Part shown: positions 26,623-54,405 of the stretch, in pieces
How the letters are laid out: every line of letters starts with the position of its first letter
How positions within the stretch are numbered: position 1 is the first letter of the stretch
DNA from: Candidatus Fermentithermobacillaceae bacterium
Lineage (GTDB): Bacteria; Bacillota; Sulfobacillia; Fermentithermobacillales; Fermentithermobacillaceae
Direction: 5' to 3'
Assembly (NCBI GenBank): GCA_012837895.1
Contig: DUQH01000141.1
Span: 1-64,000 of the forward strand
DNA: 64,000 bases
Made by a program: the position numbers and the translations under genes
The notes under the pieces: model-generated
Seen by the model: only the letters and a program-made list of their open reading frames with translations
Databases searched by the model: none
Told to the model about the DNA's origin: nothing

Positions 26623-26980
26623 GCTGTTTCTTAACCCTCTCTCAACTTCGTCGCTTTCAGGCAAGATGTGCCTTAAGCATCTGCCCGTTTCGGATTATGG
26701 GAACAATTGTCTATCCATGAGATTATTATGAATGGACATTATACTTGCGGGCAAATAATACGATAGATGGTAATCAAGGAAAAATAAGGGGTTTGAAAGG
26801 ATTTGCGCCCTGTGGGGGCGAATACTAACGGTGAATATTTACAAGTATTGCCTGGGATGACTATCTATGCCATTATCAGTTGTGGTCAGTTGGTTAAGGG
26901 GTTAGCGATAACATCGTAGATGACGCTTTCTAGGGTATCAATGTGCTTGTGTGTCCTGGGTCCATAAGGATTGAGAAGTG
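26623..26980. other. Intergenic leader of the BTAD regulator gene
   Basis: The stretch is A/T-rich in its first half. A weak promoter-like pair, TGGACA (26733) and TAATAC (26756) with 17-base spacing, is present. Nothing else was recognised. Confidence 0.35.
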
Positions 26981-28264
26981 ATGGAGGAACGTACCCAACC
27001 TGGTGATGCTATCTGCGAAACAGATACCTCGTTACATAACGCTTGTGTTGTAGAGATCATCACCTTAGGCGGACTGGATATCAGGTTTCGCGGAAAATCC
27101 CTGATCGAGTCACGCAGTGGATTGCGGAGGGTATTGGAACTTCTTAAGTACCTGATAGCCTTCCGCAATAGGCGCTTATTACCTGAGGTCATTATTGATG
27201 AGATGTGGCCTAGCTGCGATTTTGTGGATCCCAAGAGCGTTCTCAGGACACAAGTGTTCAGACTGCGCTGCTTGATTAAAGACATTGTTGCCGAAACTGG
27301 CTGTCAGGATACCCCTTGGATGGAACTGAACTCCACAAATGGCTTCTACATACTGGAGGTCGGCAGCAGGTGCCGCGTGGACGCCGACATCTTTGAGGAA
27401 ACTATAGCGTATGCCGAGGCAACCGAGCAAGAGGATGTTTCAGCGGCAATCAGTTTGTACAAAAAAGCGCTAGCTCTTTACCAAGGGGCGTATATGGCCG
27501 GCCATGTCCGGGGTGACTGGTTGACTCCTATTCAGAACCATTACCACCGCGTTTACATGCGCGCCTTGTTTAGGCTGCTAGAACTCCTCCGCAATGCAAA
27601 CGCCTATCATGAGATTATCGAGACCTGCGGAAAAGCTTTCTGGATCGAGCCGCACGACGAAGCACTCCACCTGTGCTTTCTCCAAGCACTAACTGATATG
27701 GGAGACACGAAAAGCGCACTCAGCCACTATTCTTATCTCACTTCCTTCTTGGAGAGGGAGCTTGGAGTAAAGCCATCGGCTGCCCTCAGAGCGTTCTACC
27801 GCAAGTTGCAGCAAAGGATTGACGAGAGCCACGAAACAGACCTCGTGCTCATTAAGAAGAGCTTGATTGATGATGAGAGGGCAGGGGCTTATCGCTGTGA
27901 TGTAGACCATTTCCGATCCTTGTGCCAGGTGGAAATCAGGAGAAGTCTGCGCACAGGAAAACCGGTTTTTCTGGGCATGATCACTGTCTCTGGGTTAGAT
28001 GGGTCCCGTAACGGCAAACAGGCTCAAACTGTTGCAGACCGGATTACCCATATGCTGAGTTCCTCTTTGCGCAAAGGAGATGTGTTTGCCTGGTGGAATC
28101 AGAACCAGGTGCTGCTCTTAATTACCTTGCAGGATCGGAAAAATGTCAACAAGGTAGGCCAGAGGCTCCATGCCAGGTTGCAGGAGATTGCAGACAAAGA
28201 GAACGTGCGTGCGAGATTAGAATTCCAACCTCTGACTCCGGAAATCTCGTTGCTAGTCTACTAG
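26981..28264 (+). CDS. BTAD-domain transcriptional regulator of the surface-protein island
   Basis: This 427-residue cytoplasmic regulator starts with a winged-helix DNA-binding domain (about residues 15-110, with LRTQVFRLRCLIKDI). A bacterial transcriptional activation (BTAD, TPR-like) domain follows at about 125-270. It contains AISLYKKALALYQGAYM and the FLERELGVKPSAALR signature. The last 120 residues resemble a degenerate GGDEF or nucleotide-cyclase fold, without the GGDEF motif. ATG at 26981 follows AAGGA. The neighbouring adhesin, SipW, TasA-like and sortase genes suggest it controls them, as BTAD regulators often do beside such genes. The target sites are not identified. Confidence 0.85.
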   Translation: MEERTQPGDAICETDTSLHNACVVEIITLGGLDIRFRGKSLIESRSGLRRVLELLKYLIAFRNRRLLPEVIIDEMWPSCDFVDPKSVLRTQVFRLRCLIKDIVAETGCQDTPWMELNSTNGFYILEVGSRCRVDADIFEETIAYAEATEQEDVSAAISLYKKALALYQGAYMAGHVRGDWLTPIQNHYHRVYMRALFRLLELLRNANAYHEIIETCGKAFWIEPHDEALHLCFLQALTDMGDTKSALSHYSYLTSFLERELGVKPSAALRAFYRKLQQRIDESHETDLVLIKKSLIDDERAGAYRCDVDHFRSLCQVEIRRSLRTGKPVFLGMITVSGLDGSRNGKQAQTVADRITHMLSSSLRKGDVFAWWNQNQVLLLITLQDRKNVNKVGQRLHARLQEIADKENVRARLEFQPLTPEISLLVY

Positions 28265-28629
28265 CAGGCCTATCTACTGCCAGCCACTGGTTTGCCATCG
28301 GTATCGTTCATTAGCAGGCACCGGGTGATTAGGTCCCCCTTACATTCCCCTCTACTCATGTAATCGATATGTAACTGAAACGTTCACAAATTTCACGCTT
28401 ATGTGCTTTCCAAGAAACCCATCTGTCCACGCAATGCAACTGCCCTTTGTTTTACTTGGTTTGGTCGATGATGCGGATTTGTCTAGCGAAGAGGCGGCAT
28501 CTGGCTAGAGCAAACAACAGGGGAGGAAGCGTTTATGGAAAACGCCGGGGTGTCCCGCGCAAGCCCTGCAGTACCAACGGTGAAGTTGGCGCGAAGCCGC
28601 AGACTACAGAGCACATGGAGATGAAAAGC
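28265..28629. promoter_or_regulatory. Leader of the VWA adhesin gene with probable RNA structure
   Basis: Two hairpins can be drawn: around 28529-28546 (GCGTTT with AAAACGC) and CCAAC-GGTGAA-GTTGG at about 28575-28590. They lie in a G/C-rich stretch just before the gene. I could not match it to a known riboswitch. The frame is open through this leader, so an extended N-terminus is formally possible. Confidence 0.35.
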
Positions 28630-31600
28630 ATGAAGAATGGAATGCGCATCTTGCTTGCTGCCAGTTTGGCTATGGTGTTGCTCGTCAGCAGCGGAATCCA
28701 GGGTATTGCGTCGATTGTGGCAAAGGGTCATCCAGGCCAAGTGTGGGCATCGGGTCTTTTAGATGAGTTAGATGAGGCGGATGATGCACAGCCTGACAGA
28801 ATGTTGGATACTGGCAGTCCCAAGACTCCATCCGAGGATGAAGGATTGCCAGATGATGGAAACGGAGGGCTTGTTGAGTCTGGAGATCCTGTCATTCCAG
28901 GGGGTTCTGAAGCACCGCAGCAAGGGGAAGACCCAGTGAACGAACAAGATGCAGACCCAGGCGAAGCAGCACGGCCGGATGTACCTGCAGGCCTGGAGGA
29001 TCGGGGTGGAGATCAGGTAGAGCCGGAACAGCCAGTTGACCAAGGGAATGCCCGTGAAGAACAGGTAGACGCTGGGGAACCGGAAGAGCCCGTAGAGCCG
29101 GAGCAGCCGGAGGAACCCACTGAAACGGAGGAGCCTGTGGAACCGGAGGAATCAGAAGGATCGAAGGAGGCTGAGGAACCGGAAGACCCGGGTGAGGGCG
29201 AACCAGAGGAAACTGAAGAGCCCGAACAGCAGGAACAGCCGGAAGAACTTGAGGAGCCTGAGCCTGAACAGCCGGAAGAGCCGGGAGAGGGCGAGCCGGA
29301 TGAAACTGGAGAAGGTGAATTAGACGACCAAGAGGAGACAGAGGACGGAGAAGGCCCGGAAAATCCAGGTGGGGACACAGAGGAAGCACAGACGTCAGAA
29401 CCGGCTTTGGACGTAACTATCATTACAGACAGGTTCGAGTATGAAGCCGGAGATGTGGTTCGCCTGACCGTGTTCGTGAGAAACACAGGTACAGCCCACT
29501 TGTCTGATGTCACGCTCAGGGTGCCTTTGGCAGGTTTGAAGTTTCCAATTCCGTCAATTGCCCCAGAAGAGGAAGCTGTAATCCCGGCAGATCTTAGCAT
29601 CCCATCTGACTTCTATATAGGTTATATCGGCGTGGGCGCTTACGCTGAATGCCAGTACGAGGATGTTTCTGTGACGAGTCAGGATGCAGTCCTGCTTGTG
29701 GTAGATGAGCCCGTTGATTCTGACTTCAAAGAGTACAGATTGCAGCATTGGTTCGCGGATTGGCAGTCAGTAATACCTCTGGATGTAATCCCGGCTCTGG
29801 ATGAAGAGACCTTGGCGAAGCTGCAGGATGAACAGCTCGGGGAGTTTGACCAATACGTCGCCGGTGTGGATCTATCCGGCCCAAAGGGAATGCCAGATCG
29901 CACTGACACTGTGGAGACTGCGGGCTACGTAACAAGGCTTAAGGATTGGGGATGCAGATATTGGGAGGTTACTCTTGAGGCACACGGTAAAGGTCCCCCG
30001 CTGCCGTTTGATGCAGTCCTAGTCGTCGATCGGTCAGGTAGCATGGGGTCTGGCCCGGGTTCTCCTATGGAATATGCCAAAGAAGCTGCAAGCTGGTTTG
30101 CCGGAGAAGTGCTAAGAGCGAATCCAGAGAACCAAGTGGCCGTGGTGAGTTTTGGACTTGAAGGTGCCAAGCATCCTTTATTCCCGCTACGGGTAGGCGA
30201 CCTCAATGCTGACACAAACGTTGATATTGGGTTTTCCAGCGATCTGGAGAAGGTGCAATCAGCAATCGAGAGCCTATATACACACGGTGGCACCAACACG
30301 CAAGCGGGCTTCCTTAAGGCCCTGCAACTTATGACAACCGCGCGCAGGAACTCTAAGAGAGTCATAGTTCTTCTGACTGACGGTGTCCCAACAGTCAGCA
30401 TAGGTTTTCCTTACGGTCCAAGCTACCCCGCTTTCCACAACGTCCATACTCTTGCAGCTATCTCTGCGGCCCAGTTTTGCCATCTCTTGGGTTACGAGGT
30501 GTTCACAGTCGCCCTTCTAGGTGATGTTCCTGCACCTTGCCTAAGAGTAGCCCGGGATACGATGCAGGCTGCCGGGAACGGGGGATACTACGAGCTTTCT
30601 TCGGCTGAAGACCTGATTGGGATATATGAGGAGATCTTCTATGAACTCATGTATTCGGCAAGAGATGTTGTGGTTACCGCCAAGATCCCTCCTAACTTCG
30701 AGTTTGCCGGATTTGTCGAGCCAGATGAGGGTTTTCTCCCAGCCTCGGCGGAAGTGGAAGGCGAAGGAACTATCATATGGAAACTAGGAGACATCGCTAA
30801 CGGATCTACGGTTGCCTTAAGCTACGTGATCAAGGCCCAAGATGATTATCCAGGCGGTGAAGTCTATACCGATGGTTGGGCGCAGATTGAATACTATCCG
30901 GACGCGGAAAATGATAAGAAAGTCACCGGTGAGTTTGGTTTCGACCCTCCTTGCTTTGAAGTGCCGCCACCGCTAACGGTGACCGCAACAGCCAGTCAGA
31001 ACAGCATTCCTTTTGGCGTTGAGATACAGCTTGAGGCAGCTGCAAGTGGGGGTGTTCCAGCCTACTATTACCTGTGGCAATGCGACACAAGCCCAAAGTG
31101 GTCACAAGATACTGCCGAGGTAACGGTATGTCCTGACAGGGATACAACATATACGGTGACGGCCAAGGATGAGTGGGGATGTATCGCCAGTACCAGTGTA
31201 AAGGTTAATGTCAAGACGGGCTCTATTACCATAAAGAAGATTGTAGAAAACCTATCAGAAGAAGAACAATCGAAAAAGTTCACCATCTATGTGGAAGACC
31301 CCAAAGATGGCAAACTCTGGTGCAAGACGTTAGCAGCCGGAGAGTCTGCGACCATTTCCGGGCTGAGGGCCGATAACCGCACATATACCATCTGCGAAGT
31401 AGCGCCTATGGATTATAGGGTAGTGGGTATCCGTACGTCTCACGGGACCACTTCGGATGGTACCTGTGTGACAGTGACCATTTCCGATAGCTACCTTGAA
31501 CACGAAGTTACCATTACCAATCGCAAAGTCAACAATTCTTGGTTCCGGTATTCGGCGGAAGCAGTCAATACCTTTGTTGTTAGATTCCCCGAAGACACCT

Positions 31601-31728
31601 TCACTCATGACACGAAAGGCCACCCCAATTTAATGCCGGAAGCTGTACTGCCGGAAGTGCCTGGGTTGGTACTTGAACCCGAACCTGGCGATGAGGCCCG
31701 GAACGAGAGTGAAACTCATGACGAGTGA
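28630..31728 (+). CDS. Large secreted VWA-domain adhesin with Glu/Pro-rich stalk
   Basis: This 1032-residue surface protein has a signal peptide at residues 1-38. An acidic Glu/Pro-rich low-complexity stalk follows at about 100-256. Next come a CARDB/DUF11-like beta domain (about 258-360), a von Willebrand A domain with an intact MIDAS DRSGSMGS (about 460-650), a PKD-like segment near 782 and a prealbumin-like domain (about 863-965, beginning GSITIKKIVEN). No LPXTG motif or membrane anchor is visible at the C-terminus, which ends in an acidic tail. ATG at 28630 is chosen for the GGAG nine bases upstream and the fit to a signal peptide; 28615 or 28621 are alternatives. It probably acts as a tip or scaffold adhesin for the fibre encoded downstream. 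Confidence 0.82.
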   Translation: MKNGMRILLAASLAMVLLVSSGIQGIASIVAKGHPGQVWASGLLDELDEADDAQPDRMLDTGSPKTPSEDEGLPDDGNGGLVESGDPVIPGGSEAPQQGEDPVNEQDADPGEAARPDVPAGLEDRGGDQVEPEQPVDQGNAREEQVDAGEPEEPVEPEQPEEPTETEEPVEPEESEGSKEAEEPEDPGEGEPEETEEPEQQEQPEELEEPEPEQPEEPGEGEPDETGEGELDDQEETEDGEGPENPGGDTEEAQTSEPALDVTIITDRFEYEAGDVVRLTVFVRNTGTAHLSDVTLRVPLAGLKFPIPSIAPEEEAVIPADLSIPSDFYIGYIGVGAYAECQYEDVSVTSQDAVLLVVDEPVDSDFKEYRLQHWFADWQSVIPLDVIPALDEETLAKLQDEQLGEFDQYVAGVDLSGPKGMPDRTDTVETAGYVTRLKDWGCRYWEVTLEAHGKGPPLPFDAVLVVDRSGSMGSGPGSPMEYAKEAASWFAGEVLRANPENQVAVVSFGLEGAKHPLFPLRVGDLNADTNVDIGFSSDLEKVQSAIESLYTHGGTNTQAGFLKALQLMTTARRNSKRVIVLLTDGVPTVSIGFPYGPSYPAFHNVHTLAAISAAQFCHLLGYEVFTVALLGDVPAPCLRVARDTMQAAGNGGYYELSSAEDLIGIYEEIFYELMYSARDVVVTAKIPPNFEFAGFVEPDEGFLPASAEVEGEGTIIWKLGDIANGSTVALSYVIKAQDDYPGGEVYTDGWAQIEYYPDAENDKKVTGEFGFDPPCFEVPPPLTVTATASQNSIPFGVEIQLEAAASGGVPAYYYLWQCDTSPKWSQDTAEVTVCPDRDTTYTVTAKDEWGCIASTSVKVNVKTGSITIKKIVENLSEEEQSKKFTIYVEDPKDGKLWCKTLAAGESATISGLRADNRTYTICEVAPMDYRVVGIRTSHGTTSDGTCVTVTISDSYLEHEVTITNRKVNNSWFRYSAEAVNTFVVRFPEDTFTHDTKGHPNLMPEAVLPEVPGLVLEPEPGDEARNESETHDE

Positions 31729-31788
31729 GATGCGCAGTTACAGTTACATGTTTAGTCACCACTACATCGAGAGGAAGGCGAGAACAAG

Positions 31789-32379
31789 ATGAACGTAGCC
31801 CGGGTAAGACAAGTGGGGGCGTACATAGCCAAGTCAGTCACTATAACACTAACCGTCGTCGCCCTGCTCCTTATGTTCTCCTTGGTGCAAAGCAAGCTTG
31901 CCGGTAGAGAACCTGCAATAGCCGGCTGCAAGATTTACATTGTCATGAGCGGTAGTATGGAGCCTGCTATAAAGGTAGGCAGCATGGTGGCGGTAAGACC
32001 GCTTGAGCCTGAGGAAGTCCAGCCGGGCGACATTATCACCTTCCGGAGCGAACGCGGTTCAACCGTAGCCACCCACCGGGTGAGTCGTGTCGACACTGAA
32101 AACGGCCTTCTTTTCTACACCAAGGGTGATGCAAATGACATTGAAGACCCGAGTCCAGTAGACCCGCGTAATCTCGTGGGCAAAGTGGTTCTGACTGTAC
32201 CTCATCTAGGCTATATGTTTGCTTACGCCCGCACCCCGCAAGGTGCAGGAGTTTTGTTTGGCCTTGCGGCGTTGGTTGTTGGCGGGGAGCTCCTATACAA
32301 CTACATGGCTGGCAAGAAACACCGTGACCAAGCGGCAGAGGAGACGAATGTCATTTCGCCTCCTGAGAGCCAGTCGTAA
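31789..32379 (+). CDS. sipW: SipW-type signal peptidase I
   Basis: This 196-residue membrane peptidase should remove the signal peptides of the camelysin/TasA-like subunit encoded next. It has an N-terminal helix (about 16-35) and a C-terminal helix (about 155-175). The catalytic Ser56 lies in MSGSMEP and His96 in ATHRV. The Ser/His pair, rather than Ser/Lys, marks the ER-type SipW subfamily. ATG at 31789 follows GAGAGGAAGG. It lies 60 bases after the adhesin and 97 bases before the subunit gene. Confidence 0.9.
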   Translation: MNVARVRQVGAYIAKSVTITLTVVALLLMFSLVQSKLAGREPAIAGCKIYIVMSGSMEPAIKVGSMVAVRPLEPEEVQPGDIITFRSERGSTVATHRVSRVDTENGLLFYTKGDANDIEDPSPVDPRNLVGKVVLTVPHLGYMFAYARTPQGAGVLFGLAALVVGGELLYNYMAGKKHRDQAAEETNVISPPESQS

Positions 32380-32476
32380 TGGGGGGATTGAGGCAACGTA
32401 GTGGATTGTCGGTATCAATCAGACGGATTAGTTTGGTGATTTAGTCTGAACACTAACAAGAGGAGGAAAAAGGAAA

Positions 32477-33109
32477 GTGAAGAGAAGCATTCCGATTGGT
32501 GTGTTGGTAGTTGCGCTGGTGGCCCTGTTTGTGGTCGGTGGCACCATGGCGTGGTTTACCGCACAGGCAAGCGAAACCAATGAGTTCAAGACGGGTACGG
32601 TGAAGATTCAGGTAATGGAAGAAGTTGACGAAGAACTCGACAACTGGGCCCCTGGTGAGTGGAGGGATAAGGAAATTCGGGTGAAGAATACCGGAAGCCT
32701 GCCCGCAGTCATTAAGGCGGAGTTGGTCCTGACGTGGTTGGAATGGGATGATGTAAATCAGCGATGGGCGGAAACCGATTTGCCCGTTGATAACGTTATC
32801 CTACGAATCAATGAGAGAGACTGGAGAAAAGACCGGTCTGTCCCCGGCCACGTCTATTTCTACAAGCTTCGTTTTGGTGGTTGGGACGCACTGCAACCCG
32901 GTGACGTAACTGAGCCCTTGATCAAAGCTGTAGGGCTGGACGCGTTTAAGACAGACAATCAATATCAAGGCAAGAAGCTAAGAATTGAAGTCAAAGCTGA
33001 TGCACTACAGGCTGGAGATATATCCGCGGCGATTGACGCCTGGAACATAGATGTGGATTTCTTGTCGGAAGAGTTGAAAATGGACTTGTCGGAGTTGATG
33101 AACCACTAA
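32477..33109 (+). CDS. TasA/camelysin-like fibre subunit
   Basis: This 210-residue exported protein has a SipW-type signal peptide: a helix followed by GGTMAWFTAQASETN, where cleavage is expected. The mature part opens with NEFKTGTVKIQV and then a beta-rich domain with WRDKEIRVKNTGSLPAVIKAEL, as in TasA/camelysin-family matrix proteins. It is probably the main fibre subunit processed by the adjacent SipW. GTG at 32477 is supported by AGGAGG upstream. The family usually forms biofilm fibres; activity here is inferred. Confidence 0.85.
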   Translation: MKRSIPIGVLVVALVALFVVGGTMAWFTAQASETNEFKTGTVKIQVMEEVDEELDNWAPGEWRDKEIRVKNTGSLPAVIKAELVLTWLEWDDVNQRWAETDLPVDNVILRINERDWRKDRSVPGHVYFYKLRFGGWDALQPGDVTEPLIKAVGLDAFKTDNQYQGKKLRIEVKADALQAGDISAAIDAWNIDVDFLSEELKMDLSELMNH

Positions 33110-33186
33110 TGCCCGGCTCTAGTCATGAGTCAGTAGAGGTTAGACAACAGTCATCGCCGTTGGTGCTGGTAAGCGAGGGTTAAGGC

Positions 33187-33231
33187 ACACATGCCGGGCC
33201 GGGTTCAATGGTTGCCCGGCCCGGCATGTGT
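33187..33231 (+). promoter_or_regulatory. Perfect 17-bp hairpin between fibre subunit and LPXTG-like gene
   Basis: ACACATGCCGGGCCGGG (33187-33203) and its exact complement (33215-33231) flank an 11-base loop that itself contains CAA-TGG-TTG. No T-run follows. It is very stable and lies 77 bases past the subunit stop. It probably shields the abundant subunit message or limits readthrough into the anchor gene. It could also work as a Rho-sensitive or U-poor terminator. Confidence 0.8.
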
Positions 33232-33271
33232 CGAGAGGCACTCTTCTACCCGGTAGAATGGAGGGGGCCGG

Positions 33272-34036
33272 ATGAAAAACACGATCACTATACTAGCGTA
33301 CGTCTTGATACTGGTGGCGTTGGTTGCTATGCCAGCTTGGGCTGGATCGACATGTCTGGAGCTAATCGGCGACGTAGACGGTTTATCTCTTGTGCCTCCG
33401 GGCAAGAAACTGTTCGACCTGGACAATATGGCTCCGGGTGATAGGGTGACAGCAACCATTATGATCCACAACCATTACTCCAGGTCGTATCACCTTTGGC
33501 TTAAAGCCACTGACCACACAGCTGGTAAACCTGATTTGCTCAAGCAGTTGCAACTTACAGTCACCTACAAAGGTAAAGAGATATATGACGGGCCTGCAGC
33601 CGGCTTCGCCAAAAAGAGTGTATACCTAGGACGAGTGTGGCCAGGTGAGGACGGTGAGCTTATAGCTACAGTAGAGCTTCCCGGATCCAAGACAGGTAAC
33701 GACTTTCAGGGTGTGAACGCAAGTGTAAAGTGGGTATTTACAGCCCAGACGGCCAGTGGTCCGCCCTGGGAACCACCTGAAGAACCGCCGGAGGAGCCGC
33801 CGGCAGAAGAGCATCCTGTGGAGGAGCCACCGGTTGAACCTCCTGAAGAAGAGCCCCCTGTCGGGGAGACTCCTGAGGAGATAGAACCGCCTCCCGTAGA
33901 AGAGGTGCCTTTATCGCCTCTCGATGAGCTGGAAATGCCTAAGACAGGTGAAGAAGCGCCGTATCCGTACTACTTGTTAGGAGGATTAGCAATCCTGGCG
34001 GGAGTAAGTCTTGCCGGCCCTCGCAAACGCAGGTAA
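33272..34036 (+). CDS. Sortase-anchored surface protein with MPKTGE motif
   Basis: This 254-residue exported protein has an N-terminal signal peptide (residues 1-24, ending AWA). A beta domain to about residue 165 follows, related in style to the neighbouring fibre subunit (NMAPGDRVTATIMIHNH). Next is a Pro/Glu-rich spacer (about 170-220) and a cell-wall sorting signal: MPKTGEE, a hydrophobic helix and a RKRR tail. It is the natural substrate for the sortase at 34186-34926. Its likely job is to anchor the fibre to the cell wall or membrane proteins. ATG at 33272 follows GGAGGGGG. Confidence 0.87.
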   Translation: MKNTITILAYVLILVALVAMPAWAGSTCLELIGDVDGLSLVPPGKKLFDLDNMAPGDRVTATIMIHNHYSRSYHLWLKATDHTAGKPDLLKQLQLTVTYKGKEIYDGPAAGFAKKSVYLGRVWPGEDGELIATVELPGSKTGNDFQGVNASVKWVFTAQTASGPPWEPPEEPPEEPPAEEHPVEEPPVEPPEEEPPVGETPEEIEPPPVEEVPLSPLDELEMPKTGEEAPYPYYLLGGLAILAGVSLAGPRKRR

Positions 34037-34056
34037 CCTCAAAAGCAGCAGTGTCT

Positions 34057-34097
34057 GACTACAGGCTGCCATGGATCATCCCGGGCGGCTTGTAGTC
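34057..34097 (+). terminator. Hairpin after the LPXTG-like gene
   Basis: A 14-bp stem (two G-T pairs) joins GACTACAGGCTGCC and GGCGGCTTGTAGTC. The T-run is missing, so it may be an attenuator or mRNA-stabilising element before the sortase gene. Confidence 0.5.
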
Positions 34098-34185
34098 ATT
34101 GAAGAAGGGCTAGGAATGCTGTGCGTTTGCCAAGCCAGTGCTTGGGGATGCATCCTCTGGACACGGAAGCGAGACAGGGAGGTCG

Positions 34186-34926
34186 TTGGCGAACTCTCTT
34201 ATGGATAGTCACATAAAGGAATGCGCGTTTGTGAGACGGATTACTGCTTTCTCCCTTATAATGCTAGGCCTTTGTTTGCTGGCTTATCCTACAGCACGTC
34301 GTATGTATTTTGACTACCGCCAGCGACAACTCCTGGCGTTGTGGGACGAATTCCAAGCAACCCAACCACAGGTACCCACAGCTTCTCAGGGGGGCATTTC
34401 CGGGAAAAACGACGGAACCCGTACTCTTTCGCGTTCTCTAGATATGGAGACTGGGAAAGTCGTGTCTTCTGACAGCCCCGACCCTGAGTTGTCAAAACAC
34501 ATTCTTGAAAACATACAAGGTGTCCTTACCATCGAGAAGATCAATCTCAAAATACCCGTGCTTAAAGAAGACTCTGAGGAAAACCTGAACATATCGGTAG
34601 CTCATATTGAAGGTACTTCAGGCCCAGGCGAAGTGGGGAACTACGTAATTGCCGGCCACCGTATGCGTGCTTATGGCAGGCACTTCAACCGCTTGCATGA
34701 GCTTGCAGAAGGGGATGAGATTGAGTTCACTGACCCGGAAGGCGTGATTTACGTGTATAGAGTGTTCGAGGTCTTGATAGTCAAGCCGGGAGACACGTGG
34801 GTTTTACAGCCATCAGGCGAAGATAAACTGATCACTTTGGTTACATGCGACTACAGCCAGGAACCGTCTGTGCGGCTGATAGTAAGAGGTAAACTGGTAG
34901 AGGACGATTCCCACGGCCTCCAGTAG
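34186..34926 (+). CDS. Class D sortase
   Basis: This 246-residue membrane-bound transpeptidase joins the LPXTG-like protein to its acceptor. It has an N-terminal helix (about residues 18-38), a linker, and a sortase domain from about 105. The catalytic residues can be placed as His158 in IAGHR, Cys221 in TLVTCDY and Arg230 in SVRLIVRG. The TLxTC form fits class D. The start is uncertain: TTG at 34186 lies close after GGGAGG, ATG at 34201 is another option, and GTG at 34138 has no ribosome site. It closes the surface-protein island. Confidence 0.9.
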   Translation: MANSLMDSHIKECAFVRRITAFSLIMLGLCLLAYPTARRMYFDYRQRQLLALWDEFQATQPQVPTASQGGISGKNDGTRTLSRSLDMETGKVVSSDSPDPELSKHILENIQGVLTIEKINLKIPVLKEDSEENLNISVAHIEGTSGPGEVGNYVIAGHRMRAYGRHFNRLHELAEGDEIEFTDPEGVIYVYRVFEVLIVKPGDTWVLQPSGEDKLITLVTCDYSQEPSVRLIVRGKLVEDDSHGLQ

Positions 34927-35047
34927 CTTCCGCTTTTTTCAAAAACACCGGGATTTATACACTAAATCTTATTCCACCCATTGCATACCTCAGGTTCATT
35001 TGGTAAAATTCCTTTCAATATCCATAATCGGATATATTGTATAAGGA
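34927..35047. other. Intergenic region upstream of the ykkC-type riboswitch
   Basis: The region is A/T-rich (TTTTTTCAAAAA near 34937) and is the likely promoter region for the riboswitch RNA. A promoter could not be fixed precisely. Confidence 0.35.
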
Positions 35048-35155
35048 AGGGTACCTTAGGGTTCCGTTTCGGGGTTTCGCTCTGAAAGTCTGGACCGAGC
35101 GGTACCAGCTTTGCAAAGGCAAAGCACACCGTGGGTGGAAAATACCCGAGCGGCA
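35048..35155 (+). ncRNA. ykkC-family riboswitch aptamer, probably ppGpp type
   Basis: The conserved ykkC blocks occur in order: TTAGGGTTCCG (35056-35066), GTCTGGACCGAGCGGTACC (35088-35106), CACACCG (35125-35131) and a GGGT-GGAAAAT-ACCCG hairpin (35133-35148). The family includes sensors of guanidine, ppGpp and PRPP. The nearest clear operon is a branched-chain amino acid transporter, a known type of target for ppGpp sensors, so ppGpp is my first guess for the ligand. The 3' part overlaps the 5' arm of the following terminator, giving a mutually exclusive switch. Confidence 0.72.
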
Positions 35156-35727: not shown

Positions 35728-36990
35728 ATGAAATCCATGAATCATGTGTTCAAAGGCAAGAAGAACTACGCTAGGGCTAAGTTTGACGGTTGTTCCGAGG
35801 GTAAGGATCACATCCACAACAGAGGAAAGAGGTTCATCATTAGCAGTTTCCGCACAGTTAGCATTGCAGCATTTCTGGCTGCTGTCATATTTCTAGCCGG
35901 TTGCACCGGTTCAGGGGCAGACAGCCCTCCTGCCTCAGGCGGGTCTGATGGCGACAAGATAATCAAGATCGGCATGGTCGGGCCTCTCACCGGTGACTAT
36001 GCCACTTACGGGCAGAGCGTGAGAAATGGTGTCCAGACAGCCATCGACGAGATTAACGCAGAGGGCGGCGTTAACGGGTTCACTCTCCAGCTTATTGCCG
36101 AGGACAGCAAAGGTGAATCCACTGAAGCTGCCAATGCAGTCCAGAAACTCATTGACCAAGACAAAGTAACCGCAATCGTAGGAGCTGTGCTGAGCGGCGA
36201 AACCGCAACTGTAGCTCCGATTGCTCAGGATTCAGGAGTCCTGATGGTTACTCCATCATCTACCGCTCCCGGATTGACAGACACCGGCGACTACATATTC
36301 CGCAACGTGATTACTGACGATGTCCAGGCCAGGCAGTTGGCCGAATATGTCGTATCTGAGTTAGGCCTCAAGAAATTTGCAGTGCTTTACGCCAACAACG
36401 ACTACGGCGTCGCCCTGAAGGACAATTTCACCGCCAAAGTTGAAGAACTAGGCGCTTCAGTTGTAGGTGTTGAGTCGTACCTCGACGGCGATGAGGATTT
36501 CAGGGCCCAGCTCACAAAGATCGGCAATGAAGTTGATGCCCTGTACATCGCAGGGTATTACACAGAAGCTGCCAAGATCGCACAGCAGGCCAGGCGACAG
36601 GGTATAGAGGCCAGGCTCCTTGGCGCAGATGGCTTCTATTCAGGTAAACTCGTTGAACTCGGTGGCGATGCTGTCGAAGGTGCCTTGTTCACCGCCGGGT
36701 TCTACTCAGGCGACTCGTCAGAAAATGTTCAAGCCTTCGTCTCAACCTACAAGCAGAAGTACTCGGAAGAGCCTGATATGTTTGCTGCCAACGCCTACGA
36801 CACTATGAAGATAGTGGCGCAAGCCTTGGAGAAGGCGGGTAACGACAGGGCGGCGCTTAAGGCTGAAATGGCTAATGTCAAGGACTTCCCAGGGGTTACC
36901 GGTACAACCTCCTTCGACGACAGGGGAGAAGCGGTGAAGGAAGTCATAATTCTCAAGGTTGAGAACGGGAAGTTCAGCCGGGCTAGGTAA
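35728..36990 (+). CDS. livK: Branched-chain amino acid ABC transporter substrate-binding lipoprotein
   Basis: This 420-residue receptor for leucine, isoleucine, valine or related amino acids is lipid-anchored outside the membrane. The lipobox FLAGC lies near residue 60, after an unusually long basic N-terminal extension of about 40 residues. The mature part opens with IKIGMVGPLTGDYATYGQSVRNGV, typical of family-4 periplasmic-binding (LivK) proteins. ATG at 35728 is supported by GGGAGGGAG; internal starts would give a more usual signal peptide. It heads a complete liv operon ending at 40570. Confidence 0.93.
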   Translation: MKSMNHVFKGKKNYARAKFDGCSEGKDHIHNRGKRFIISSFRTVSIAAFLAAVIFLAGCTGSGADSPPASGGSDGDKIIKIGMVGPLTGDYATYGQSVRNGVQTAIDEINAEGGVNGFTLQLIAEDSKGESTEAANAVQKLIDQDKVTAIVGAVLSGETATVAPIAQDSGVLMVTPSSTAPGLTDTGDYIFRNVITDDVQARQLAEYVVSELGLKKFAVLYANNDYGVALKDNFTAKVEELGASVVGVESYLDGDEDFRAQLTKIGNEVDALYIAGYYTEAAKIAQQARRQGIEARLLGADGFYSGKLVELGGDAVEGALFTAGFYSGDSSENVQAFVSTYKQKYSEEPDMFAANAYDTMKIVAQALEKAGNDRAALKAEMANVKDFPGVTGTTSFDDRGEAVKEVIILKVENGKFSRAR

Positions 36991-54208: not shown

Positions 54209-54270
54209 AGCAAAACTCTGAGTGTAACGTTGACAATTACTCCTAAACGCTATACCCTGAACATGGAAAC

Positions 54271-54357
54271 GGTTTGCGGGGGAACTCCTCCGAGTTGAGA
54301 AAGGTAAGACCTGACCCCTTGAACCTGTTGGTTAATACCATCGTAGGGAAGCAAACC
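54271..54357 (+). ncRNA. TPP riboswitch (thi box)
   Basis: The aptamer shows GAGTTGAGA, ACCCCTTGAACCTG, then GGTTAATACCATCGTAGGGAA, very near the thi-box consensus. A perfect P1 is formed by GGTTTGC (54271-54277) and GCAAACC (54351-54357). It lies upstream of thiD-thiM-thiE and should shut them off when thiamine pyrophosphate is plentiful. Confidence 0.95.
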
Positions 54358-54362
54358 AGGTA

Positions 54363-54405
54363 CAAACACGATGTTTGACTGGGTGCCTCCCGCGGCGGGG
54401 CACCC
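54363..54405 (+). promoter_or_regulatory. Expression-platform hairpins of the TPP riboswitch
   Basis: CAAACA-CGA-TGTTTG (54363-54377) is followed by GGGTGCC (54381-54387) pairing with GGCACCC (54399-54405). TGTTTG could also pair with the CAAAC of the P1 3' arm, giving a possible alternative fold. There is no clear T-run after the second stem, so the exact switch mechanism is not evident. Confidence 0.5.

Follow-up and report, generated by a model that had tools for sequence, protein, structure and literature searches.

The known role of TasA fibres is that of a matrix scaffold. Their subunits join through residues 28–38, with contacts at F29, I32 and F39, and the N-terminus of TapA resembles this donor strand, as described in PMC9674648. 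Capping of a TasA fibre by an adhesin, or its covalent attachment to the cell, had no described answer in the literature searched. Searches combining TasA with sortase, LPXTG, VWA or tip, and BTAD with SipW, returned no title or abstract describing such an arrangement (few subscription papers were covered). Here we describe a gene island that may encode such a fibre in a Candidatus Fermentithermobacillaceae bacterium, within a stretch of 64,000 nucleotides (contig DUQH01000141.1, positions 1–64,000; hereafter the window, to whose positions coordinates refer). Six open reading frames (ORFs) in the window ORF list, all on the + strand and spanning 26978–34926, encode in order a BTAD regulator, a VWA adhesin, a SipW peptidase, a TasA/BsaA-like subunit, a protein with the sorting signal MPKTGE (MPKTGE protein) and a sortase (Table 1). 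Domain calls were made with Pfam and NCBIfam profiles. A preliminary description of the locus as six co-directional genes was borne out, each gene matching a profile, and its observation of a surface-fibre island is partly confirmed: it holds, with one wrong label (sortase class D).

The reading we favour, to which we give an even chance, is a wall-anchored fibre composed of a VWA tip with a donor strand, a TasA-type shaft and a TasA-fold LPXTG base. The island product would be adhesive. SipW would free the TasA-like subunits, which would polymerise by donor-strand exchange: each would complete the sandwich of its successor with its own N-terminal strand. The tip would be the VWA protein, its C-terminal W-F-x7-N-x-F motif mimicking the TasA donor strand, filling the groove of the first subunit and starting the fibre. 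At the opposite pole, the MPKTGE protein would be the base and could receive the last TasA strand and end the fibre because it appears to have the TasA fold without a donor strand; the neighbouring sortase would link this base to peptidoglycan. The BTAD regulator may tie expression to cyclic diguanosine monophosphate (c-di-GMP) through a degenerate GGDEF-like end.

The tip role is suggested by the tail of the VWA protein. The pattern W-F-x7-N-x-F, that of the TasA donor strand, was present in 10 of 10 VWA homologues, 41 to 64 residues before the protein end, and the F-to-F spacing was 10 in all VWA tails, as in the window TasA. A scan of 17 loci, with 1,075 stop-to-stop ORFs and 190,956 amino acids (aa), found it 16 times: in nine VWA tails, in seven TasA N-termini and nowhere else. 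One spurious hit, WFPRRFPRYNCL, on the opposite strand of three loci that overlap, was dropped, and a 1299-aa protein of locus L127, considered as a second donor-like C-terminus, proved to be an RCC1-repeat protein with different spacing. Because the motif had been seen first, two pattern-free tests were added, a column permutation and a leave-locus-out profile. For the permutation, column order was shuffled in the alignment of the VWA family, which kept the relatedness of the sequences, and the shuffled alignments were scored against a TasA profile (the TasA paralogue at L010 6536–7090 was left out). The observed mean score was reached in 0 of 20,000 permutations with 13 and with 16 columns, and in 2 of 20,000 with 24 columns.

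The VWA ORF (1093 aa) is open from TTG 28447, and the signal segment begins at ATG 28615, the probable start. The encoded protein shows an N-terminal signal segment, a Pro/Glu-rich stalk, a VWA domain with a metal ion-dependent adhesion site (MIDAS), and immunoglobulin (Ig)-like and CnaB-like domains; it has neither an LPXTG signal nor a C-terminal hydrophobic segment. The MIDAS that had been reported for the adhesin is indeed intact (D-R-S-G-S, GGT and TDG residues). All seven distinct Protein Data Bank (PDB) sequences matched at E-values up to 0.01 were pilus, fimbrial or cell-wall surface-anchor proteins; 2ww8 we take to be RrgA, and 3txa and its kin presumably represent GBS104. Both are named as related adhesins in PMC7835359. 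Mfa5 is among the seven (E 9.9e-10 for the homologue in genome G543), and the Pfam tip-pilin GBS104-like Ig domain was detected in nine of 10 VWA homologues, the exception being the window's own. With a MIDAS-bearing VWA domain and homology to SpaC, RrgA, GBS104 and Mfa5, the protein resembles pilus tip adhesins in sequence. Relatives have, immediately 5′ of the VWA gene, a conserved gene for a small protein of about 80 aa with an FRS-x-EL motif; no match to it was found in the window.

The predicted shaft subunit scored above cut-off for the BsaA family (TIGR04090, 62.7 bits; cut-off 60) and for the SipW-type signal peptide (TIGR04088, 31.8 bits; cut-off 19). With 30 bits against the 450 of the TasA equivalog NF046066, it is, by sequence, a relative rather than Bacillus TasA itself. 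Its family profile matched TasA in the PDB (8aur, E 6.2e-5; 5of1, E 1.7e-4), and 8aur was the top Foldseek match of its model (E 1.8e-5); in VIA-align the model reached Z 6.6 to TasA, under unrelated rows, and integrin rows ranked higher. The sequence around the cleavage site, judged by eye, reads A followed by WFTAQASETNEF, the predicted donor strand; the predicted local distance difference test (pLDDT) score of the model was <50 over residues 20–38. A sorting signal of LPXTG type was found in none of 14 TasA-like proteins (one, of L075, cut by a contig end). The SipW peptidase scored 114 bits with the SipW_Bacil profile, under its cut-off of 190.

The MPKTGE protein consists of an ordinary Sec-type signal, a TasA-like domain, a Pro/Glu-rich wall spanner and the sorting signal; its identification as an LPXTG-like protein was upheld by TIGR01167 above cut-off. 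It was modelled with AlphaFold2 using 10 homologues, and in Foldseek an archaeal bundling pilus and TasA ranked first. In VIA-align the model matched TasA 5of2 with Z 11.2 over 131 aa at 2.6 Å; monomeric TasA gave 11.2 and 10.8, the TasA fibre 8aur 8.9, the archaeal bundling pilus 7.4 and the next row 7.2, so that a TasA fold is predicted well above unrelated folds. Three proteasome rows stood above TasA 8aur in the PDB profile search of this protein; they fall on its acidic tail and were set aside as low complexity. The alignment paired residues 26–163 with TasA 39–235 and began right after the predicted Sec cleavage between AWA and G (by eye). Since it starts at TasA 39, the published donor strand 28–38 has no counterpart in the MPKTGE protein, and the W-F-x7-N-x-F motif was found in 0 of 10 of its homologues. 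Judged from the model, the protein looks like a TasA subunit minus the donor strand.

The genome of this bacterium gave a single sortase match and a single LPXTG match, and the two genes adjoin; because the genome is 96% complete, further sortases or LPXTG proteins may be missed. As the shaft has no sorting signal and only the MPKTGE protein has one, the sortase would anchor the base and not polymerise the shaft. The proposed pairing of a TasA-type subunit with covalent anchoring is supported, the signal sitting on the TasA-fold MPKTGE protein and not on the shaft. The sortase carries the catalytic-type motifs VIAGHR, LVTCDYS and RLIVRGK, and its only hydrophobic segment is N-terminal. All class profiles remained below cut-off (C, 95.3 of 160 bits; E, 85.3 of 160; D, 60.4 of 165). 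The class D label did not hold (NF033746, 60.4 of 165 bits; NF058671, 60.1 of 140), C and E scoring higher here as well as in most of the sortases of six relatives.

Table 1. Features of the proposed fibre island in the window and of related loci (L numbers denote loci of relatives, with positions in those loci).
Feature	Position	Strand	Evidence or remark
BTAD (SARP-like) transcriptional regulator	26978–28264	+	PF03704, E 4.6e-23
VWA adhesin, 1037 aa from ATG (proposed tip)	28615–31728	+	VWA_2, E 1.7e-15
VWA domain, MIDAS intact	30016–30384	+	PF13519 best stretch, residues 524–646 of the 1093-aa ORF
Donor-strand-like motif WFRYSAEAVNTF	31540–31575	+	Near VWA protein C-terminus; W-F-x7-N-x-F
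SipW-type signal peptidase I	31789–32379	+	TIGR02228 (sigpep_I_arch), 117.7 bits; cut-off 51.85
TasA/BsaA-like fibre subunit, SipW-type signal	32477–33109	+	TIGR04090, TIGR04088, Peptidase_M73 E 1.1e-13
Predicted donor strand WFTAQASETNEF of TasA-like subunit	32552–32587	+	Aligned to F2 onwards of chain 8aur_A
TasA-fold LPXTG protein (proposed base subunit)	33272–34036	+	TIGR01167, 21.7 bits; cut-off 15.9
MPKTGE sorting signal	33935–33952	+	Sequence
Sortase, nearest class profiles C and E	34138–34926	+	PF04203, E 7e-34
PDB matches of VWA protein			SpaC and kin (6m3y, 6m48), 2ww8, 3tvy, 3tw0, 3txa, Mfa5 6to1
FRS-x-EL proteins of about 80 aa	L081 11699–11944; L076 4602–4778; L080 11170–11316; L078 103–195		
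c-di-GMP-I riboswitches before TasA-like genes	L118 7537; L119 9527; L122 12812; L123 6664; L124 7544; L126 7747; L128 10613; L010 7096; L044 8468		
Transglutaminase-like genes	L077 2883–3674; L078 6298–7176; L081 4040–4873; L118 10781–11611; L119; L122; L123		

Within the six-gene set the intergenic gaps are approximately 60–350 bp, and a promoter and terminator scan gave the same result as shuffled sequences; both observations are compatible with the presence as well as the absence of a single operon. That the island is more than a chance association is indicated by recurrence of the whole or nearly whole set in relatives. Among 61 genomes (the bacterium's own and 60 relatives), matches numbered five for the TasA-like protein, 11 for SipW and 16 for the sortase. 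In the same-genus genome G004 the set is complete, the VWA gene being frame-broken and the BTAD gene truncated after about 49 residues. There, the pre-VWA leader together with a small 83-aa ORF (L043 11719–12303) is inverted relative to the operon; a true rearrangement and an assembly error are both possible. Phase-variable inversion before the VWA gene was considered and set aside, the flanking inverted repeats being unconvincing. The arrangement was BTAD-VWA-SipW-TasA-TasA-LPXTG-like in Tissierella creatinophila and VWA-TasA-TasA-LPXTG-sortase in G010, with SipW on another contig.

At class level, a profile of the VWA C-terminal region matched four of 154 genomes, and at phylum level 13 of 398; only four genomes of the phylum search (the bacterium's own, G411, G462 and G348) reached the tail of the model. 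Searches around G348, G462 and G411 were positive in 4/22, 1/4, 1/13 and 5/26 genomes (overlapping sets), and the loci of these groups again read VWA-SipW-TasA-LPXTG-sortase as far as contigs extend. In all nine loci whose contig reaches far enough, the TasA gene shares the locus with the VWA gene. Of the 398 phylum genomes, 70 matched the profile of the MPKTGE protein; in 15 of these genomes, the bacterium's own included, matches with E below 1e-25 run from the TasA domain at least as far as position 236 (of 264). The core SipW-TasA-LPXTG-sortase recurred in part or whole in 20 fetched LPXTG-type loci, five of which had an adjoining BTAD gene with E under 1e-100. The preliminary description had proposed looking for the same gene set in relatives and had named a lack of joint conservation as evidence against it; the set was conserved together, whole or nearly whole and with its order kept.

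The regulator carries a clear BTAD domain (PF03704, 82.6 bits; cut-off 22.1), and its C-terminus (residues about 300–403) is degenerate and GGDEF-like, with R-K-G-D kept, GG[DE]EF absent and weak Pfam matches (GGDEF_2, 0.02; GGDEF, 0.038). R-x-G-D was kept in 10 of 10 BTAD homologues checked and GG[DE]EF was found in none of them, which argues against an active diguanylate cyclase. In GGDEF domains, an R-x-G-D type motif can serve as the I-site for c-di-GMP, and it is our guess from sequence that the regulator senses c-di-GMP through it. The earlier idea of a BTAD-regulated island stands in part: the gene adjoins the set in some loci and is absent from others. An Rfam scan of TasA-bearing relative loci placed a c-di-GMP-I type riboswitch directly before the TasA gene in nine of 16; at L119 and L123 the riboswitch overlaps the called TasA start, which has probably been placed too far upstream. 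At L044 one further such riboswitch precedes the VWA gene, and several in relatives lie before a transglutaminase-like gene 3′ of the sortase. The literature searched for c-di-GMP riboswitches with SipW or TasA yielded no report of this association. In the window, the leader before the VWA gene, suspected by eye to hold a c-di-GMP riboswitch, had no such match in Rfam at E up to 10 and folded no better than shuffles (z +1.28).

The transglutaminase-like gene follows the sortase gene or the LPXTG gene and is preceded by one or two c-di-GMP-I riboswitches; the single such gene tested matched PF01841. At L128 15257–15339 a c-di-GMP-II riboswitch lies 673 nt upstream of a BTAD gene. Downstream of the island, a guanidine-I riboswitch candidate (35044–35154, +; 47 of 63 bits and thus below the gathering score, E 6e-6) precedes branched-chain-type ATP-binding cassette transporter genes starting at 35728, and a thiamine pyrophosphate (TPP) riboswitch lies at 54268–54367 (+; 63.1 bits, cut-off 54.3).

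Several points weigh against a tipped and anchored TasA fibre. The motif pattern was picked after the sequences had been viewed, and with the leave-locus-out profile of 24 residues the VWA tail was top in its own locus in five of 10 cases, second in three, and not the best segment of its own ORF in two of 10. Together, the permutation and profile results indicate that the likeness between tail and TasA sequences is real but restricted to about 13 residues, a shortness that itself counts here. The TasA proteins of tip-bearing genomes had an F-to-F spacing of 10 in nine of 14 cases and of 11 in five, the latter including both proteins of Tissierella and both of G411. Perfect covariation of tip and TasA spacing was rejected, with nine at 10 and five at 11 in tip-bearing genomes versus four and 14 in tipless loci (Fisher p 0.03, from non-independent data points, in a table that omits one protein at 13 and the TasA proteins missed by the search pattern). 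The base model had a modest pLDDT of 69 and, fitting self-complemented 5of2 more closely than fibre-form 8aur, does not demonstrate an open groove. No sortase adjoins the Tissierella set, and Rfam detected no c-di-GMP riboswitch in the window. Lastly, the tip is not universal: this VWA protein was encoded in 0 of the 20 LPXTG-type loci (G411, one of them, has it on another contig; L046 and L047, cut by contig ends, were left out of tip counts), so that tipped loci would represent one version of a more widespread anchored-TasA module.

Some of these points favour the view that the VWA tail is a conserved C-terminal part of the CnaB-like module with another use, such as docking or processing, in a secreted adhesin merely co-encoded with the TasA operon: the match covers only 12–13 residues, the 24-residue profile is weak, the spacing is mismatched in three genomes and many TasA-LPXTG loci have no VWA protein. 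We nevertheless consider this unlikely in view of the permutation result (0/20,000), the confinement of the motif to VWA and TasA proteins in 190,956 aa, and the presence of TasA in every VWA locus where the contig suffices (9/9).

The permutation result would also suit a TapA-like VWA protein, a nucleator or chaperone starting TasA fibres near the cell, with the MPKTGE protein as a separate wall-bound TasA-like protein; the same strand logic would apply, given that in B. subtilis TasA receives the N-terminus of TapA, which is able to occupy only the start of a filament, as stated in PMC10151520 and PMC9674648. However, a relative of pilus tips with some 1000 aa and a VWA/MIDAS domain would be an odd chaperone and has no anchor to keep it at the cell, and we consider this explanation unlikely too. 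TapA combines an N-terminal donor strand with a complete Ig fold in a single protein; here the VWA strand is near the C-terminus, and the MPKTGE protein is without the donor motif.

It is very unlikely that the sortase instead builds a pilus with an MPKTGE-protein shaft, TasA being minor or separate. Class C is the nearest sortase profile (95.3 bits), as in five of six relatives, and most of the tip adhesins matched in the PDB belong to sortase pili. Yet all seven sortases scanned fell below the class C cut-off (95.3 of 160 bits for the window's own). The lid motif of class C sortases is DP[FWY]; none precedes the domain in 9/9 sortases, none of which has a C-terminal hydrophobic segment. To our knowledge, every pilin and tip of a canonical sortase pilus has a sorting signal; here the single signal is on the MPKTGE protein, with none on the VWA tip or the shaft. 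An ordinary TasA/BsaA-type matrix operon, with anchoring and adhesin as dispensable or decaying extras, would fit the truncated BTAD and frame-broken VWA genes of G004, the missing sortase and TasA matches in three of four same-genus genomes, and the neighbouring srtB unneeded for BsaA polymers in Clostridium perfringens (PMC7395162), but the window copy is intact and several families of the phylum retain the set, and this reading appears scarcely credible.

If the tipped and anchored TasA fibre is correct, a motif of about 12 residues could turn a surface protein into a plug for TasA fibres, and the donor-strand model would be testable with peptides. Donor-strand and sortase-anchored fibre classes would be joined in one structure, tied to c-di-GMP in several families. 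Three of the elements involved go beyond the preliminary description: a VWA protein tail that resembles a donor strand, an MPKTGE protein with a TasA fold, and the presence of c-di-GMP riboswitches in relatives. Its suggestion of a distinct matrix-fibre type stands as far as the set is conserved and looks like a distinct TasA-fibre variant, the assembly of which we infer. A more far-reaching proposal, which we make tentatively and rate somewhat short of even, is a third Gram-positive pilus route, in which the tip pilin of a sortase pilus swapped its LPXTG signal for a C-terminal TasA donor strand and so caps a self-assembling fibre, a TasA-fold base lost its donor strand, ends the fibre and became its only sortase-fixed part, and c-di-GMP control was exerted phylum-wide by riboswitches preceding TasA or by a BTAD regulator with a dead GGDEF domain.

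Each of the known systems shares part of this arrangement. The Mfa1 type V fimbriae of Porphyromonas gingivalis likewise have a VWA tip, Mfa5, on a donor-strand-type shaft, although Mfa5 has a C-terminal signal of type IX and its incorporation by donor strand, as for the other subunits, is not expected according to PMC7835359. Sortase pili with VWA tips (SpaC, RrgA, GBS104) offer relatives of the VWA/MIDAS tip and a sortase-anchored base, whereas here the tip is without a sorting signal, the shaft without LPXTG, and the joining of the shaft predicted to be non-covalent. The TasA-CalY-CapP system of B. cereus resembles the island in combining a TasA-type heterofilament with a helper protein, but is described as sortase-independent in PMC13082335. 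C. perfringens sipW-bsaA shares a SipW-dependent BsaA-family subunit (TIGR04090 above cut-off here) with a sortase gene nearby; there, deletion of srtB was without effect and BsaA is without LPXTG, according to PMC7395162, whereas in the window the sortase has a TasA-fold LPXTG partner, along with a VWA tip. With tapA-sipW-tasA of B. subtilis the island has in common SipW and a TasA-type subunit, the F-to-F spacing of the donor strand, and a second protein (TapA there, the VWA protein here) that would offer the first strand. Unlike in B. subtilis, no TapA gene was seen among the six, the strand is offered near the C-terminus of the VWA adhesin, and a separate TasA-fold protein has an LPXTG signal and its own sortase.

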